From: Ignavibacteria bacterium
GTDB lineage: Bacteria > Bacteroidota > Ignavibacteria > Tepidaquicellales > Tepidaquicellaceae
NCBI GenBank assembly: GCA_026417495.1
Contig: JAOADD010000011.1
Coordinates: 1 to 51,445 of the forward strand
Direction: 5' to 3'
DNA length: 51,445 nt
Below, piece by piece: positions 23,762 to 31,649 of the stretch (positions are counted from its first letter, which is position 1; each line of letters starts with the position of its first letter). A program made the translations under genes and the position numbers. The notes under the pieces are model-generated. The model was not told where the DNA came from. It saw nothing but the letters and a program-made list of their open reading frames with translations, and made no database searches.

Positions 23762-25195
23762 CTATATTAGATTATATTCTTCTCCTCTTTCAGGAATGAA
23801 AACATTATTATATCCCAAAGCAATAATAGAATTATACAGAGCTTTTTGTCTTTCATATTCACCATGAACTAAGAAAATAGATTTCAATTTATCCTTATTG
23901 AAATTAGAAATATATTCAATCAATTCATTGTGGTCTGCGTGACCTGAGAAAGAATTGAGAATTCTAATTTTACAATTTACTTTATACTCAGTACCAAAAA
24001 TTCTAACGATTTTACCTGGTTCATCTTTTGCCTCTACAAGTCTCCTACCAAGTGTATCAACAGCCATAAAACCAACAATTAGGACTATGTTTTTAGGGTT
24101 TTCTATACTATTTGCAAGGTGATGTTGTATCCTCCCTGCTTCACACATGCCGGAGGCAGAAATAATCATACAAGGACCGTTAATAGTATTTAATTGCTTT
24201 GATTCATTCACATCTTTAATGTAAAGAATATTATCTAACCCAAACATATCATAACCTTTTGCTAAATAATCCCTTGTTTCTTTATCAAAACACTCCAAAT
24301 GCAGTTTAAAAACATCAGTAACATTAACTGAGAGCGGACTATCAACAAAAATAGGAAATTGAGGAATCTTGCCTTTTTCTGTCAATTTAGTAATAAAATA
24401 AACCAATTCCTGAGTACGACCAACACTGAAAGATGGAACAATAATTTTTGCATCAGTTTTAAGTGCTTCTTCAATAACATTGAGCAAATCCTCCTCCATC
24501 CTTTCACTACTGTCGTGAACTTTTCCACCATAAGTAGATTCAATAATTAAATAATCTACATCACCCATAAATTCAGGATCTCTCAATATAGGAAGGTTTT
24601 TTCTTCCAAGGTCTCCTGTAAAACCGATTTTTGTAGTAGTACCCTTTGAATGAATTTCAAGCACTATCTGAGCTGAACCAAGCAAATGTCCTGCTTCATA
24701 AAAAGTAACATCAACCATATTTCTGAAACCATCAAGAGTGAATCTCTTATTGTATGGGAATGACTTGAAATATTTGAGAACTTCAACTGCATCGTCAAGA
24801 GTATATAAAGGGTTGAATAGAGGTAAGTTTTTCTTTGCCCTTTTTTTATTTACAAATTCAACATCTTTTTCTTGTACATAAGCACTATCTTGTAACATTA
24901 TTGAACATAAATCCCTCGTTGCAGAAGTGCAATATATATTTCCATTAAATCCTTTAATCAACAGAGTGGGTAGATTACCTGCATGATCTATATGAGCATG
25001 TGAGAGAATTACTGATAGAATCTCTGTAGGATCATAGATGAAATGCCTGTTCATTTTATATGATTCTTCTCGTTTCCCTTGAAATAATCCACAATCTAAA
25101 AGTAGTTTATACCCATTAATATTTATTAAATGTTGCGACCCTGTAACATTTCTCGCAGCACCACAAAACTTGATTGAAATATTTCTATCGCTCAT
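23762..25195 (-). CDS. Beta-CASP metallo-beta-lactamase-fold RNase-like protein
   Basis: A 477-residue protein of the YSH1/CPSF73-like group. Motif 2 HAHIDHAG (about 66-73) binds two Zn, GHLLGSA and FTGDLGR supply motifs 3 and 4, and the beta-CASP insert carries ESTYGG, PSFSVGRTQEL and ASGMCEAGRIQHHL. C-terminal GHAD and VHGE complete the RNA-specificity motifs. Bacterial members act as RNA endo/exonucleases in RNA turnover or maturation; no KH domain is present. Its ATG overlaps the stop of the DNA glycosylase gene by four bases (ATGA), and glgA begins four bases after its own stop. Confidence 0.9.
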   Translation of the reverse strand: MSDRNISIKFCGAARNVTGSQHLININGYKLLLDCGLFQGKREESYKMNRHFIYDPTEILSVILSHAHIDHAGNLPTLLIKGFNGNIYCTSATRDLCSIMLQDSAYVQEKDVEFVNKKRAKKNLPLFNPLYTLDDAVEVLKYFKSFPYNKRFTLDGFRNMVDVTFYEAGHLLGSAQIVLEIHSKGTTTKIGFTGDLGRKNLPILRDPEFMGDVDYLIIESTYGGKVHDSSERMEEDLLNVIEEALKTDAKIIVPSFSVGRTQELVYFITKLTEKGKIPQFPIFVDSPLSVNVTDVFKLHLECFDKETRDYLAKGYDMFGLDNILYIKDVNESKQLNTINGPCMIISASGMCEAGRIQHHLANSIENPKNIVLIVGFMAVDTLGRRLVEAKDEPGKIVRIFGTEYKVNCKIRILNSFSGHADHNELIEYISNFNKDKLKSIFLVHGEYERQKALYNSIIALGYNNVFIPERGEEYNLI

Positions 25196-25812
25196 AATCT
25201 AATAGCTGTTTCATTTATTTTATGTTTACTTACAAAATTATTATTATAAATAAAGAATCTATAAGGAAATTCTTTCCCTTTATTAATCCCAATCCTCCCC
25301 GATTGCATAATAATAATTTTCTCGGTCGACAGTTTATAATTTTCAGTGATGAAAAAATTTTTATCCATTACTAAATCTCTACCATTATCTTTCATATCAA
25401 TATCGAATGCTTTACAAAATTTACCTGGCCCATTTGTTAAATTTATTAAATTGTGCTCTATACCTCTCAATAGCTTCATTGTTTCAATACCTTCTAATGG
25501 TTCTACTGCCCTAACTAAAACTGCATTACCTTCTCCTTTTGCTCCTGTAACCACATTAAAACAATAATGATTACCATAAACAAAATAAACATAAGCAGTC
25601 CCACCTATTGCATACATAACTTCGCATCTACCCTTGGTTCTCATATATGCATGACATGCTGGATCATGAGAACCGATATATGCTTCGACTTCAACAATCT
25701 TTCCTGATAAGAACAACTTTCCATATCTTTTCACAATTATCTTTCCTAATAGTTCCTTTGCTACTGTTAATGTATCTCTAATATAAAAGTCTCTCGAGAG
25801 TGGTCTATTCAT
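25192..25812 (-). CDS. mpg: 3-methyladenine DNA glycosylase (AAG/MPG type)
   Basis: A 206-residue base-excision repair enzyme that releases alkylated purines. It shows the AAG family signatures RPLSRDFYIRDTLTVAKELLGK, VEVEAYIGSHDPACHAY (catalytic Glu in VEAY), MYAIGGTAYVYFVYGNHYCFNVVTG, VLVRAVEPLEG and LTNGPGKFCKAF. I take the ATG at 25812 as start; an upstream TTG at 25839 adds nine residues that do not belong to the conserved domain. It is the first gene of the mpg/beta-CASP/glgA unit. Confidence 0.94.
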   Translation of the reverse strand: MNRPLSRDFYIRDTLTVAKELLGKIIVKRYGKLFLSGKIVEVEAYIGSHDPACHAYMRTKGRCEVMYAIGGTAYVYFVYGNHYCFNVVTGAKGEGNAVLVRAVEPLEGIETMKLLRGIEHNLINLTNGPGKFCKAFDIDMKDNGRDLVMDKNFFITENYKLSTEKIIIMQSGRIGINKGKEFPYRFFIYNNNFVSKHKINETAIRL

Positions 25813-26094
25813 AATCTTTATGCAATCAAAAATAATCAATTAATATCTGAAAATAATGTTAAAAAATTAAATTGTTTCAACTTCTTCAAATATCCAAAAC
25901 TTTACATTCTAGTAAAATACTTGTAGAATAAAAAAAATTTTAAATCCTAAATTAATAAATCAACTTCTTGATAAGGAGAAAATAATTTTCTCTTTTTACA
26001 AACGCTTAAAAAAGATTCAATATCAGTCAAAGAATCCAGAATATCCAAAGTAAAATAATTTAAAAGTAAATAAAATAGTTTTTCAATTAATTAC
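25813..26094. other. Intergenic stretch between mpg and the rimP operon promoter
   Basis: AT-rich divergent spacer without a gene. It holds an alternative promoter-like pair, TTTACA at 25901-25906 and TAGAAT at 25924-25929 (17-base spacer), and a small hairpin GAGAAAA/TTTTCTC (25976-25992) followed by TTTTT, a weak terminator-like element in the plus direction. If that far promoter is used, its transcript would end at the weak hairpin or run into the rimP leader. I see no clear promoter for mpg on the minus strand. Confidence 0.35.
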
Positions 26095-26125
26095 TTGATT
26101 ATGTAAAATAAATATTTTAATTTTA
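26095..26125 (+). promoter_or_regulatory. Promoter of the rimP-nusA-infB operon
   Basis: TTGATT at 26095-26100, a 17-base spacer, then TAATTTTA at 26118-26125 (TAnnTTTA). The predicted start at about 26130-26131 coincides with the first base of the 5' hairpin in the leader, so the leader would be about 57 bases long. Spacing is the same as in the other promoters found here. Confidence 0.55.
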
Positions 26126-26130
26126 TGTGC

Positions 26131-26179
26131 GTTCGGTGTGCTACGAACCTGAGTGGGTGAGTTGACCCACTTTTTTTTT
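26131..26179 (+). promoter_or_regulatory. Two-hairpin leader with intrinsic terminator before rimP (putative attenuator)
   Basis: Hairpin 1: GTTCG (26131-26135) / CGAAC (26144-26148) with an 8-base loop. Hairpin 2: AGTGGGT (26152-26158) / ACCCACT (26165-26171) with a 6-base loop, followed by nine T (26171-26179), a textbook intrinsic terminator. The rimP ATG follows only 8 bases later at 26188. The terminator therefore sits inside the leader of the operon it precedes. NusA, encoded by the second gene, modulates hairpin-dependent termination, and in E. coli the equivalent operon is NusA-autoregulated. A feedback attenuator is the simplest reading, but this is inference. Confidence 0.65.
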
Positions 26180-26187
26180 GGTAAATT

Positions 26188-26649
26188 ATGAAAGAAAAAA
26201 TATTTGACATAGTTAGCAAAGTAGTAGAAAACAGCGACTTAATGCTGATAGATATCCACTTACGTGGAGAAAGGAAAAATTACATACTTGAGATTTTTAT
26301 AGATAGTAAAGACAAATTAGACTTTGATGTCTTAACGGATATGAATAATAAAATATGGGACGAAATAGTGCTGAACAGATTGGATAACGAGTTCTCTAAA
26401 TTTATCGTTTCTTCACCAGGAGTGGATAGACCATTTAAATATTTCGATCAATTGTATAAACACATTGGAAAAGATTTAATAATAAAGATGAAAGATGGAA
26501 GTAATCTAACAGGTAAATTAATCGGATTAAATGATAAGGATACGAAAAATGAATTGATAATAGAATTTGAAAATGTTGAAAAAGAGAAAAATACTATTGC
26601 TGTTGAATTTAATCAAATACAGTATTCAAAAGTTAAATTAAAATTTTAA
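26188..26649 (+). CDS. rimP: Ribosome maturation factor RimP
   Basis: A 153-residue protein needed for 30S subunit assembly. The N-terminal domain shows LMLIDIHLRGERKNYILEIFIDSKDKLDFDVLTDMNNKIWDEI. The link VSSPGVDRPFKYFDQLYKHIGKDLIIKMKDGSNLTGKLIGLND is the diagnostic RimP signature followed by its Sm-like C-terminal domain. The length is normal. It heads the classic rimP-nusA-infB-rbfA-truB cluster. No Shine-Dalgarno sequence precedes the ATG; the terminator T-tract lies there instead. Confidence 0.95.
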   Translation: MKEKIFDIVSKVVENSDLMLIDIHLRGERKNYILEIFIDSKDKLDFDVLTDMNNKIWDEIVLNRLDNEFSKFIVSSPGVDRPFKYFDQLYKHIGKDLIIKMKDGSNLTGKLIGLNDKDTKNELIIEFENVEKEKNTIAVEFNQIQYSKVKLKF

Positions 26650-26655
26650 AAAACT

Positions 26656-27741
26656 ATGGCATCTGAAATATTTGAAGCATTCGCACAACTCGCAAAACTT
26701 AAAAACATAGATAAAGATATACTTGAAAGTGTTTTAAAGGATGCATTAAAAAAGATGATGGAAAAGCGATTCGGGCAGGACAGTGAGTTTGAGATAATTG
26801 TAAATATGGATAGAGGAATAATAGAATTATTTGTTTACAAAACAATAGTCGAAGAAGTTAATGATCCTGATACAGAAATTGACCTTGAAACAGCCAGAGC
26901 GAAATCTGATGGACAGGAATTTGAAATAGGTGAAAAGTTCCTTGAAGAAATCACAATCGGAAGTTTTGGGAGAAGATCAGTTCAAACCTTGAAACAATAT
27001 TTGAGGCAGAAAATCAGTGAAATAGATAAAGAAGTTACTTATAACAGATACAAAGACCAGGTAGGAGAATTAATTGTTGCTGAAGTATATCAGAATAAAT
27101 CAAATTCAATATTATTAATGCATAATGGTTGTGAAATAATCTTTCCAAAATCAGAACAAATACCAAAAGAAAAATATAAAAAAGGAGATACAGTAAGAGC
27201 AGTAATAAAAAGTGTTGAGAAAAAATCATCAGGTCCACCTTTAATTGTGGTATCAAGAACAGATGATAAATTTCTTGAAAAACTATTTGAAACCGAGATA
27301 CCCGAGATTTTTGATGGTGTAATTGAAATTAAAGCAATAGCAAGAGATCCAGGTGAAAGAGCAAAAGTTGCCGTTGTTTCAAACGATAACAGAATAGATG
27401 CAGTTGGTGCTTGTGTCGGAATGAGAGGTACAAGAATTCATGCTATCGTGAGAGAATTAAGTAATGAAAATATCGATGTTATAAATTACACAGATGATAT
27501 TGCTTTATATATCACAAGAGCATTAGCACCAGCAAAAATACAGGAGATACAAATCGATAATGTAAATAAAATTGCCAAAATAAAAGCCGATGAAGAGCAA
27601 ATTAGTCTCTTAATTGGTAAAAATGGTCAAAATATAAAGCTTGCTTCAAGATTAACAGGGTATCAACTTGATGTGCTTCGTGATGAAAATGAAATGGACT
27701 CAAATGAATATGAAGAATTAACAAAAGATAACGAAAATTAA
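26656..27741 (+). CDS. nusA: Transcription termination/antitermination factor NusA
   Basis: A 361-residue RNA polymerase-associated factor. The order is an N-terminal RNAP-binding domain (about 1-125), S1 domain (about 132-200, GELIVAEVYQNKSNSILL), KH1 with DPGERAKVAVVS...DAVGACVGMRGTRIHAIVREL (about 235-290), and KH2 with EEQISLLIGKNGQNIKLASRLTGY (about 312-345). The C-terminal acidic repeats of E. coli NusA are absent, as in most bacteria. It modulates pausing, termination and antitermination, and probably feeds back on the terminator in its own operon leader. It lies 6 bases after rimP. Confidence 0.96.
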   Translation: MASEIFEAFAQLAKLKNIDKDILESVLKDALKKMMEKRFGQDSEFEIIVNMDRGIIELFVYKTIVEEVNDPDTEIDLETARAKSDGQEFEIGEKFLEEITIGSFGRRSVQTLKQYLRQKISEIDKEVTYNRYKDQVGELIVAEVYQNKSNSILLMHNGCEIIFPKSEQIPKEKYKKGDTVRAVIKSVEKKSSGPPLIVVSRTDDKFLEKLFETEIPEIFDGVIEIKAIARDPGERAKVAVVSNDNRIDAVGACVGMRGTRIHAIVRELSNENIDVINYTDDIALYITRALAPAKIQEIQIDNVNKIAKIKADEEQISLLIGKNGQNIKLASRLTGYQLDVLRDENEMDSNEYEELTKDNEN

Positions 27742-27759: not shown

Positions 27760-30588
27760 ATGCCAGAAGAGATAAAAACAAAAAAAATACAAGTTTTTCA
27801 ACTATGTAAGGATATAAATCTTCCTAAGGAAGATATTATATCCTTTTTAACGGATAAGTTAGGTTTAAAAAATGTTACTCTGAATACAAAATTAGATGAA
27901 GATACAGTAAACAAAGTATATAGTCACTTTAAAAAAGAAAAAGAAGAACATGAGAAATATCAAAGGAGAGTATTAGATTTCTCAGAAAAAGTTGGAGTAG
28001 AAATATCTGAAGCTCAAGAGCTTAAAAGACGTCAAGAAGAGGAAAGGAAAAAACAGGAGGAAGAAGAGAGAATAAAGAAAGCATTAGAAGAGAAAAAGAA
28101 AAGAGAAGAAGAAGAAAGGAAGAGACAAGAATTACTAGCATTGATTGAGAGGGAGAAATTATTAAAGAAAGAGCAGGAAGAAAAAGAAGCAAAGCAAAAG
28201 AAGTTAATAGAACTTTACGAAGCCAAAAAACGAATTCAAGAAGAAAAGAAAAAGAAAATAGAAGAGGAAAGAAAAAAGAAAGAACAAAAAGAAATAAAGA
28301 AGCCATTAGAAAAAGAAAAACCAAAACCAATCCAAGAAGCAGAGAAAAGACAAACTAAAGATATTGAAAAACCAAAAATAGAAATAATTAAACCGAAACC
28401 AGAGAAAGTCGATCACAAACAAAAAGAAAAAATATTAAAAGACAAAGGTAAAGAACCAAAAGTAAAAGAGATAAAATTTGGTGGCGATGAATCAAAAGTA
28501 AAAAAAGGAAAGGATAAGAAAAAAATAACAATTAAAGATAAAATAAATAAAACAGACCAACCCATAACTCCCCCTAGAACGACGAAAGAAAGAAAGATTA
28601 AAGAGCATCACGAAGTTGAAAAGAAGAAAAAATCAAAGTTAGGAAAACACAGGGAAAATTTAATACAAAGACAAGAAATAGAAGAAGCTTTGAGAGAGAC
28701 TTTGCAGCGAATTGATGAACCAACTCCAATTTCTGCAAGAGCAATAGCAAGGAAGAAAAAGAAAAAAGAAAGACAGGAGCAGGAGAAGAAGTTAGAAGAA
28801 TTAAAAAAGGCATCCGAAAATGTATTACGCGTTACAGAATTTATTACAACTGATGAATTATCAAAATTAATGCAAATAAGTCCCGCAGAGATTATAAAAG
28901 AGTGCTTTAATTTAGGAGTGATTGTTTCAATAAATCAGAGATTAGACAAAACGTTAATTGAATTAATTGCTGAACATTTTGGTTATAAAGTAGAATTTCA
29001 AAAAGAATATCAGGAAGATTTACTAAAAGATTATGATGATCCACCAGAGACTTTAAAACCTCGCCCACCTGTAGTAACAGTTATGGGACATGTTGACCAT
29101 GGTAAAACCTCCTTACTAGATTACATTAGGAGATCCAATGTAGTTGCAGGAGAAGCAGGAGGAATTACACAGCATATTGGTGCATATAAAGTTAAACTTG
29201 ATGAAAAAGGTGGAAAGGAAATAACTTTTCTCGATACACCAGGTCATCAGGCATTTACAGCAATGCGTGCAAGAGGTGGACAAGCTGCGGATATTGTTAT
29301 TCTTGTAGTTGCCGCCGATGATGCTGTTATGCCTCAGACGGTTGAAGCTATTAATCATGCCCTTGCTGCAAATGCACCGATCATTGTTGCTATTAATAAG
29401 ATAGATAAACCCGAAGCGAATCCAGATAGAATCCGTCAACAATTAGCAGAAAGAAACATTTTAGTTGAAGAATGGGGAGGAAAATATCAGTCTGTTGAAA
29501 TATCAGCTAAATTTGGGAAGAATATTGATTTACTTCTTGAAAAAATATTATTGGAAGCAGAATTACTTGATTTAAAGGCAAATCCCAATAGAAAAGCAAG
29601 GGGTGTTGTGATTGAATCTAAAATGGATAAAGGAAGAGGAATTACTGCAACCGTACTAGTTCAAAAAGGTACACTGAGAATTGGGGATGTATTCGTTGCT
29701 GGTATGTGCTCAGGTAAAGTTAAAGCTATGTTTGATGAAAGAGAAAGGAGAATTGATGCTGCAGCACCATCGACACCAGTTCAAATATTAGGATTTGATA
29801 GTATGCCACAAGCGGGAGATACATTCGTATGTGTCGAATCAGAAACATTAGCTAGAGAAATAGCAAAGAAAAGGCAACAATTAAAAAGAGAACAAGATTT
29901 TAGAACAATTAAATTTGTCACTTTAGATGATATTTCAAACCAAATTAAGAAAGGGAAACAGGTTGATTTAAAAGTTATAATAAAAGCAGATGCAGATGGC
30001 TCGGTTGAAGCAATTGCCGACTCATTATTAAAACTTTCAACACCTGAAATAAAAATTTCAGTTGTACATAAAGCTGTTGGACAAATAACTGAATCAGATA
30101 TACTTTTAGCAGAAGCATCAAACTCAATCATAATAGGGTTTAATGTTAGGCCAAACCAGAATGCAAGAAAACTTGCTGAACAAAATAAAATAGATATAAG
30201 ATTACATAATGTAATTTACGATGTTATAGAAGAAGTGAAAAAAGCACTCGTAGGTCTATTAGAACCTGAAAAGAAAGAAGAAGTTACAGCAATAGTAGAA
30301 GTAAAGGAGGTATTCAAAGTACCAAAGGTCGGAAATGTTGCAGGTTGCTATGTACAGGAAGGTAAAATATCAAGGAATAACAAAGTAAGAATAATTAGAG
30401 ATGGACTGGTAAAATATGAAGGGAACATACTTTCACTTAAAAGGCTAAAAGATGATGTTAAAGAAGTGGAAGCAAATTATGAGTGTGGTATTGCTATTGA
30501 AAACTACAATGATATAAAAGTAGGAGATATTATTGAAGCATATAGAATAATAGAAACGAAAAAGACTCTAACATTTGAAAAAATATAA
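27760..30588 (+). CDS. infB: Translation initiation factor IF-2
   Basis: A 942-residue GTPase that recruits initiator tRNA to the 30S subunit. An N-terminal IF2_N-like module (about 1-55) is followed by a very long Lys/Glu-rich, probably coiled-coil and disordered segment (about 60-330), a second IF2_N module (about 352-410), the G domain with GHVDHGKT at 443-450, DTPGHQAFTAMRARG and NKID, then domain II, domain III and the C-terminal fMet-tRNA-binding domain (GNVAGCYVQEGKISR). It follows nusA by 18 bases in the operon. Confidence 0.97.
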   Translation: MPEEIKTKKIQVFQLCKDINLPKEDIISFLTDKLGLKNVTLNTKLDEDTVNKVYSHFKKEKEEHEKYQRRVLDFSEKVGVEISEAQELKRRQEEERKKQEEEERIKKALEEKKKREEEERKRQELLALIEREKLLKKEQEEKEAKQKKLIELYEAKKRIQEEKKKKIEEERKKKEQKEIKKPLEKEKPKPIQEAEKRQTKDIEKPKIEIIKPKPEKVDHKQKEKILKDKGKEPKVKEIKFGGDESKVKKGKDKKKITIKDKINKTDQPITPPRTTKERKIKEHHEVEKKKKSKLGKHRENLIQRQEIEEALRETLQRIDEPTPISARAIARKKKKKERQEQEKKLEELKKASENVLRVTEFITTDELSKLMQISPAEIIKECFNLGVIVSINQRLDKTLIELIAEHFGYKVEFQKEYQEDLLKDYDDPPETLKPRPPVVTVMGHVDHGKTSLLDYIRRSNVVAGEAGGITQHIGAYKVKLDEKGGKEITFLDTPGHQAFTAMRARGGQAADIVILVVAADDAVMPQTVEAINHALAANAPIIVAINKIDKPEANPDRIRQQLAERNILVEEWGGKYQSVEISAKFGKNIDLLLEKILLEAELLDLKANPNRKARGVVIESKMDKGRGITATVLVQKGTLRIGDVFVAGMCSGKVKAMFDERERRIDAAAPSTPVQILGFDSMPQAGDTFVCVESETLAREIAKKRQQLKREQDFRTIKFVTLDDISNQIKKGKQVDLKVIIKADADGSVEAIADSLLKLSTPEIKISVVHKAVGQITESDILLAEASNSIIIGFNVRPNQNARKLAEQNKIDIRLHNVIYDVIEEVKKALVGLLEPEKKEEVTAIVEVKEVFKVPKVGNVAGCYVQEGKISRNNKVRIIRDGLVKYEGNILSLKRLKDDVKEVEANYECGIAIENYNDIKVGDIIEAYRIIETKKTLTFEKI

Positions 30589-30613: not shown

Positions 30614-30967
30614 ATGGCATACCGAGTAGAAAAAGTATCAGAAGAGATTAGACAAAAGATGAATATTGCTATGTCAAAGGATTTAGCAGAATTAAACTTA
30701 GGAATTGTAACGGTTTCTAAGGTTATTTTATCCCCCGATTTAAAGAACGCAAAAATTTATGTAACTTTTATTGGAAATAAAGAGCCATATGAAAAATGTA
30801 TTGATAAATTGAATTATCGGAAAAAACATATCAGGTACATGCTTGGCAAAGAATTAACGATGAAATTTATACCTGAGATACATTTTTATTACGATGATAC
30901 ACTTGATACAGCAGAAAGAATTTTTAAAATTCTAAATGATTTAAGGAAATCTGAATCCTCAGAATAA
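30614..30967 (+). CDS. rbfA: Ribosome-binding factor A
   Basis: A 117-residue 30S maturation and cold-adaptation factor with the KH-like RbfA fold: VSEEIRQKMNIAMSKDLAELNLGIVTVSKVILSPDLKNAKIYVTFIG at the N-terminus and MKFIPEIHFYYDDTLDTAERIFKILNDL at the C-terminus. The length is typical. It sits 25 bases after infB. Its last 17 bases probably overlap the beginning of truB, which lacks a standard start codon. Confidence 0.95.
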   Translation: MAYRVEKVSEEIRQKMNIAMSKDLAELNLGIVTVSKVILSPDLKNAKIYVTFIGNKEPYEKCIDKLNYRKKHIRYMLGKELTMKFIPEIHFYYDDTLDTAERIFKILNDLRKSESSE

Positions 30968-31649
30968 TATATTCTCAAATAGAATAATATTAGTAGATAA
31001 ACCCACCGATTACACAAGTGCGGATATTGTAAGGATATTTAAGAAAAAATTCAAAATAAAAAAAATTGGACATACAGGTACGCTCGATCCAAAAGCAACT
31101 GGATTATTAATTCTTTGTACAGACAAAATGACAAAAGAAATCACTAAACTAATAGAAACTGAGAAAGAATATGAAGGGATTTTCCGCATCGGTGCAACAA
31201 CAAAAACATTTGACACTGAATCAGAAGAAGAAAATATTGTACCAACAAAAGATATAAGTGAAGAATTAATAATATTAACTGCACATTCATTTATAGGAGA
31301 ATCTGAACAAATACCACCGATATATTCAGCAATAAAATATAAAGGGAAACCGTTATATACACACGCACGAAAAGGGAAGAAAGTAGAATTAAAACCTAGA
31401 AGAATTTTCATATCAAAATTTGATGTGAAAAAGCTTAATGAAACAGAAGTTTATTTCAAAATAATATGTAGTAAAGGGACTTACATCAGAACAATTGCTA
31501 ATGATTTTGGACAAAAACTTGGATGTGGCGCATACTTGAAAAGTTTAAGACGCACAAGAATCGGAAATTTTGTTTTAGAAAATTTTAATGAAAATTTAAA
31601 TGGAATTCCTTATAAAATTTTAGAAAACCTGAACAATAATTTTATTTAG
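30951..31649 (+). CDS. truB: tRNA pseudouridine(55) synthase, non-AUG start
   Basis: Pseudouridylates U55 of the tRNA T-loop. The N-terminal core VDKPTDYTSADIVR and the catalytic segment KKIGHTGTLDPKATGLLIL (Asp46 in this numbering) lie upstream of the first in-frame ATG (31128), so a start at 31128 would delete the active site. The frame is open from 30945, and between there and 31128 it contains no ATG, GTG or TTG. CTG at 30951, behind AAGGAA at 30943-30948, is my preferred start; ATA at 30969, just after the rbfA stop, is the alternative. The 232-residue protein is short and lacks a PUA domain, but the C-terminal YIRTIANDFGQKLGCGAYLKSLRRTRIGNF is typical. Confidence 0.88.
   Translation: MNPQNNIFSNRIILVDKPTDYTSADIVRIFKKKFKIKKIGHTGTLDPKATGLLILCTDKMTKEITKLIETEKEYEGIFRIGATTKTFDTESEEENIVPTKDISEELIILTAHSFIGESEQIPPIYSAIKYKGKPLYTHARKGKKVELKPRRIFISKFDVKKLNETEVYFKIICSKGTYIRTIANDFGQKLGCGAYLKSLRRTRIGNFVLENFNENLNGIPYKILENLNNNFI

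Follow-up and report, generated by a model that had tools for sequence, protein, structure and literature searches.

A conserved leader terminator before rimP-nusA-infB in Ignavibacteria: probably a compact form of a known NusA-linked attenuator

In an Ignavibacteria bacterium, the operon rimP-nusA-infB-rbfA-truB is preceded by a very short leader that consists of a promoter, a hairpin and a tract of exactly nine T. The hairpin motif is unique within the genome, is conserved throughout the family, and its counterpart in related families stays at nusA where rimP has been lost. This leader probably represents, in a compact form proper to Ignavibacteria, the rimP(-nusA) attenuator already known from other bacteria, in which NusA would set the read-through into the operon. 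The source assembly (GCA_026417495.1) contains 2.19 Mb in 76 contigs, and the window, i.e. the whole stretch of DNA analysed here, comprises 51,445 nucleotides of contig JAOADD010000011.1. The features of the leader and its operon are given in Table 1.

Table 1. Leader and operon features, with positions counted from the first base of the window
Feature	Position	Strand	Remarks
Methylpurine-DNA glycosylase gene	25192-25839	divergent	upstream neighbour of the leader
Leader promoter, -33 element (TTGATT)	26095..26100	+	TTG with 20-nt gap to TA in 27/27 family leaders
-7 element TAATTTTA	26118..26125	+	Bacteroidota TAnnTTTG type; predicted start ~26130-26133
5' hairpin GTTCG/CGAAC	26131..26148	+	exists, not conserved, probably due to chance
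Terminator stem-loop GTGGGT-GAGTTG-ACCCAC	26153..26170	+	folding, family motif search and leader shuffles
U tract, exactly nine T	26171..26179	+	invariant in 27/27 family leaders
rimP	26188..26649	+	PF02576
nusA	26656..27741	+	PF08529 and KH domains; the leader tracks it in relatives without rimP; its product is likely to give the feedback signal
infB	27760..30588	+	downstream within the operon
rbfA	30614-30967	+	downstream within the operon
truB	to 31649 (rbfA and truB 30614..31649)	+	downstream within the operon

The terminator hairpin and its conservation

The initial annotation described a terminator, AGTGGGT/ACCCACT followed by nine T, close to the start of rimP, and this element is real: the rimP ATG begins 8 nt downstream of the end of the T tract. 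Searching the 29 genomes of the family with the pattern GTGGG-N4-9-CCCAC-T7 (GTGGGN{4,9}CCCACTTTTTTT) gave a single match per genome in 28 of them, the exception being 77% complete, and a reversed-pattern control had no match in any of the 29. In all 27 family leaders that were read in context the motif precedes rimP and the T-run is exactly nine long. The observed hairpin score was matched by only 4 of 1080 shuffles of these leaders, although in one of them (L008) the top scan match is a stronger terminator farther upstream. The unique family motif and the shuffle result together place the terminator far beyond chance.

Pairing of the terminator helix over the 27 relatives amounts to 96.8%; its inner pair is T-A here and T-G in three of them, and its loop is 5-7 nt long and variable. 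A homopolymer of unvarying length over 27 genomes appears unusual, and the fixed T tract is consistent with a tuned termination efficiency. In three leaders (L015, L017 and L018, of genomes G018, G003 and G025) the nine T directly adjoin the predicted rimP ATG, so that a terminated RNA would end just before the start codon. Measures of the whole structure in the alignment of the 27 leaders remain at shuffle level, because the terminator stem is nearly invariant within the family and the 5' stem is unpaired; this alignment showed no other conserved helix, antiterminator or larger structured element.

Folding of positions 26127-26190 (-18.6 kcal/mol, z -2.35) predicts two hairpins, which the initial annotation had joined into a two-hairpin leader, but only the terminator hairpin is conserved. 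The 5' stem pairs in 51% of cells over the 27 relatives, no better than in shuffles, and in G002, whose NusA is 90% identical, its 3' arm reads CTTTA instead of CGAAC; we have therefore rejected the GTTCG/CGAAC hairpin as a functional element. The statement that the leader replaces any Shine-Dalgarno sequence is misleading, since such motifs are found at only five of the 35 large ORFs of the window, near the background of 8%, and rimP is therefore not special in missing one. A possible leader peptide, starting at ATG 26125 and extending over 11 codons as far as a TGA within the stem, was also discarded, its start, length and stop varying among relatives as judged by eye. No known riboswitch or Rfam leader reached the gathering score in this genome, where only weak chance matches were obtained. 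This holds also for the rimP covariance model RF01770, which describes a leader of the same operon; the model has 102 positions and recovers E. coli only among 14 control genomes.

The promoter

The promoter proposed earlier (TTGATT, 17 nt and TAATTTTA) lies where it had been placed, and it follows the pattern TTG-N20-TAnnTTTR at a distance of 27 nt upstream of the terminator stem. The 20-nt gap from TTG to TA is kept in all 27 family leaders compared with 34% of shuffles, these being counts from related and hence not independent genomes, and the distance from the -7 box to the stem ranges from 23 to 35 nt. The promoter is thus supported by conservation, and judged by its sequence it is of the Bacteroidota type (TTG/TAnnTTTG) rather than of the E. 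coli sigma-70 type. In alignment A3 of the family f1 leaders, many relatives share a weak stretch like GATTTTAATGAATAT in the first transcribed bases, downstream of the -7 box and ahead of the stem; a similar form is seen in the sister family f2.

Leaders in other families

In other Ignavibacteria families the stem sequence differs, yet a hairpin and a T-run occupy the corresponding position. In 27 of their 33 rimP leaders the top scan match is a stem of the GGG/CCC type within ~90 nt of the gene; the arms are often inverted (GCCC...GGGC), and GGGC...GCCC stems are also found. Most of these leaders have the same promoter type with its 20-nt gap, and the U tract lies 28-54 nt past the -7 box. 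The scan selects for pairing by itself, and roughly every second shuffle of these regions also attains its loose threshold of -6 kcal/mol, so that the weight of the comparison rests on position, stem type and recurrence. Both arms have changed between families while their complementarity and position have been kept, which argues for selection on the hairpin.

In Bacteroidia, nearly all of the rimP leaders (L073-L138, e.g. L085, L097 and L105) have GAGGGGAC/GTCCCCTC stems with a short or interrupted T tail, often TTTTATT, and the terminator is weaker-looking than that of Ignavibacteria.

The leader stays with nusA

Two families of the class have no rimP gene detectable with PF02576, namely f2 (15 genomes) and f19 (nine genomes). 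A custom profile, built from 15 RimP proteins of the class and giving 1e-24 to 1e-45 with positive controls, found none in 21 f2 and f19 genomes either; the best E value was 0.017, and the matches were to long unrelated frames. PF17384 proved unsuitable as a test of rimP loss, scoring below the cut-off even on the RimP of the window, and the custom profile was used instead.

In f2, 14 nusA leaders consist of a promoter, a short spacer, a hairpin (GACGCT or GGCGCT/AGCGTC) and a T-run. Single f2 leaders score only moderately above shuffles (47 of 560 shuffles attain the observed score), and the weight comes from the recurrence of one hairpin at one position in the whole set. The nusA leaders of f19 have the same arrangement with a classic GGGC/GCCC hairpin, recognized in 9/9 by eye and as the top scan match in 8/9. 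In f2 genus g17 (e.g. L029, L030, L034 and L036) a conserved ATGAGGCTTAnnAAATGA overlaps the start of nusA and stands at the position where rimP would end; it can be read either as a frame of five codons (MRL.K) with ATGA at its end or as a GAGG Shine-Dalgarno-like site. Genome G037 contains two full-length nusA copies (C113:1137-2174 and C26:410-1447), possibly due to a strain mixture.

In a further family, f11, rimP and nusA are either separated or have an upstream region each. The compact leader is missing from 10 of the 11 rimP genes; before the eleventh, in G052, lies a strong terminator, which may be that of the upstream gene. The nusA hairpins of f11 are less clear: most genomes have a hairpin and T, G104 has none, several score like shuffles, and genus g28 seems to have another promoter-like element downstream. 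We have rejected them as clean attenuators, and f11 is counted only for the absence of the leader at rimP. Between hairpin and nusA, five f11 upstream regions (L172, L176, L210, L211 and L214) share a conserved GGAATTTG...GTGTTA, possibly a second promoter of unusual type.

The leader is thus kept at nusA without rimP and is absent at 10/11 separated rimP genes, i.e. it follows nusA. This suggests that the attenuator serves NusA rather than RimP; the linkage argues against RimP as a necessary signal and fits NusA, and would also allow another factor tied to the nusA-infB operon.

Relation to known leaders

The rimP-leader was described as the most widespread attenuator by Naville and Gautheret in 2010, with NusA proposed as its regulator or sensor and RimP also named as a possible regulator (PMC2965389). 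Our leader shares with it the location before rimP-nusA-infB, a short stem with G-rich and C-rich arms, a U tract, the lack of a visible antiterminator, the specificity of the motif to this one leader in the genome, and the distance to the gene start (4-130 nt there, 8 nt here). Of the stem, GGG...CCC is common to both, within GGGT...ACCC here and a consensus of GGGc...gCCC there, whereas the fixed nine T and a Bacteroidota promoter merely 27 nt upstream of the stem are found only here. Inverted arms were noted in that study for a second terminator in Gammaproteobacteria, and Bacteroidetes are not named in its main text.

In E. coli, terminators t1 and t2 precede rimP and NusA acts on its own operon (PMC6511841). 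A review citing Mondal 2016 (PMC12288461) describes a B. subtilis leader with intrinsic termination stimulated by NusA, likewise in an operon that holds nusA; NusA dependence was measured there and is proposed here, and that leader is ~180 nt long (PMC2965389) as opposed to ~50 nt. The rimP-nusA-infB leader of Streptococcus agalactiae, with termination 31 nt past the start and NusA feedback proposed, has an equally compact intrinsic terminator (PMC4448216), but it belongs to another phylum, has another promoter type and was measured by RNA-seq, whereas ours is predicted. Transcriptomes of flavobacteria, of the same phylum, revealed a conserved structured 5' element before rimP, with no Rfam match and no mechanism given (PMC9723704).

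Proposed mechanism and alternatives

From the genomes we infer termination in cells, its partial extent and NusA as its signal, as follows. RNA polymerase would start at ~26130-26133 and first make about 20 nt of RNA without conserved structure, followed by the GUGGG/CCCAC hairpin and U9. Some of the polymerases would be released at U9, giving an RNA of 45-50 nt, and the remainder would read into rimP-nusA-infB-rbfA-truB. NusA, a stimulator of hairpin termination, most likely sets the released fraction: more free NusA would mean more termination and less read-through. By raising termination in its own leader NusA would let the operon control its own NusA level, and that of IF2 with it. The initial annotation had suggested a NusA-sensing attenuator, and comparative genomics and the published leaders favour a terminator attenuator with NusA as the likely sensor, without the two-hairpin part.

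We add a conjecture in which we have little confidence. Throughout the class no more than ~20-50 nt separate the transcription start from the U tract, so that polymerase would presumably arrive there during the exchange of sigma for NusA, and the site would then be sensitive to NusA loading. The leader might thus sense the loading of NusA on young elongation complexes, with nine T fixed as the set-point, and the attenuator might belong to nusA and outlast rimP.

The alternative that survives best, though we consider it unlikely, is a constitutive partial terminator that senses nothing and either cuts operon transcription by a fixed fraction or yields a small RNA. The leader contains no visible antiterminator or sensing structure, an invariable tract of exactly nine T would be in keeping with a fixed set-point too, and the sequence would be no different if the terminator had a fixed strength independent of NusA. 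However, a weaker promoter would achieve the same with less, the hairpin has long been conserved at nusA even after the loss of rimP, and feedback by NusA on the same operon has been reported for B. subtilis, with proposals to this effect for E. coli and S. agalactiae.

The hairpin, lying a short way from the predicted 5' end and from the start codon (which the nine T even adjoin in three genomes), could instead act after transcription, by stabilizing the mRNA 5' end or by blocking ribosome access at the rimP start. An uninterrupted U tract after the stem in every family leader speaks against this, and the f2 hairpin lies ~50-170 nt upstream of the nusA start and thus mostly beyond an initiating ribosome, so that such a role is very improbable. 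RimP, instead of NusA, as the feedback signal on the hairpin is likewise very improbable: in most species the hairpin lies directly upstream of rimP, and RimP was named in 2010, but the two families in which rimP is undetected retain the leader at nusA (24 genomes), and it is mostly missing where rimP is separated from nusA. That the hairpin terminates the upstream gene is largely refuted, since the neighbour is divergent here and a conserved promoter separates neighbour and hairpin in 27/27 family leaders, despite a few relatives with other upstream-gene terminators nearby (e.g. L008).

A NusA-set attenuator remains the best and a probable explanation, in view of the family motif, the invariant nine T, the conserved promoter just upstream of the hairpin, the divergent neighbour and the leaders kept at nusA; the less clear f11 hairpins count against it.

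Conclusions

The idea of a NusA attenuator is plausible and right in outline, yet it had been put forward before for this operon in other bacteria. New, on the evidence of genome comparison, is the form in this Ignavibacteria family, with its unique motif and fixed nine T, and the leader staying with nusA after the loss of rimP. A little-studied published attenuator is thereby extended to Ignavibacteria. Two families without rimP and one with rimP and nusA apart are natural experiments that separate RimP and NusA, the sensors proposed in 2010, and leaders as short as these lend themselves as templates to in vitro tests of NusA feedback.
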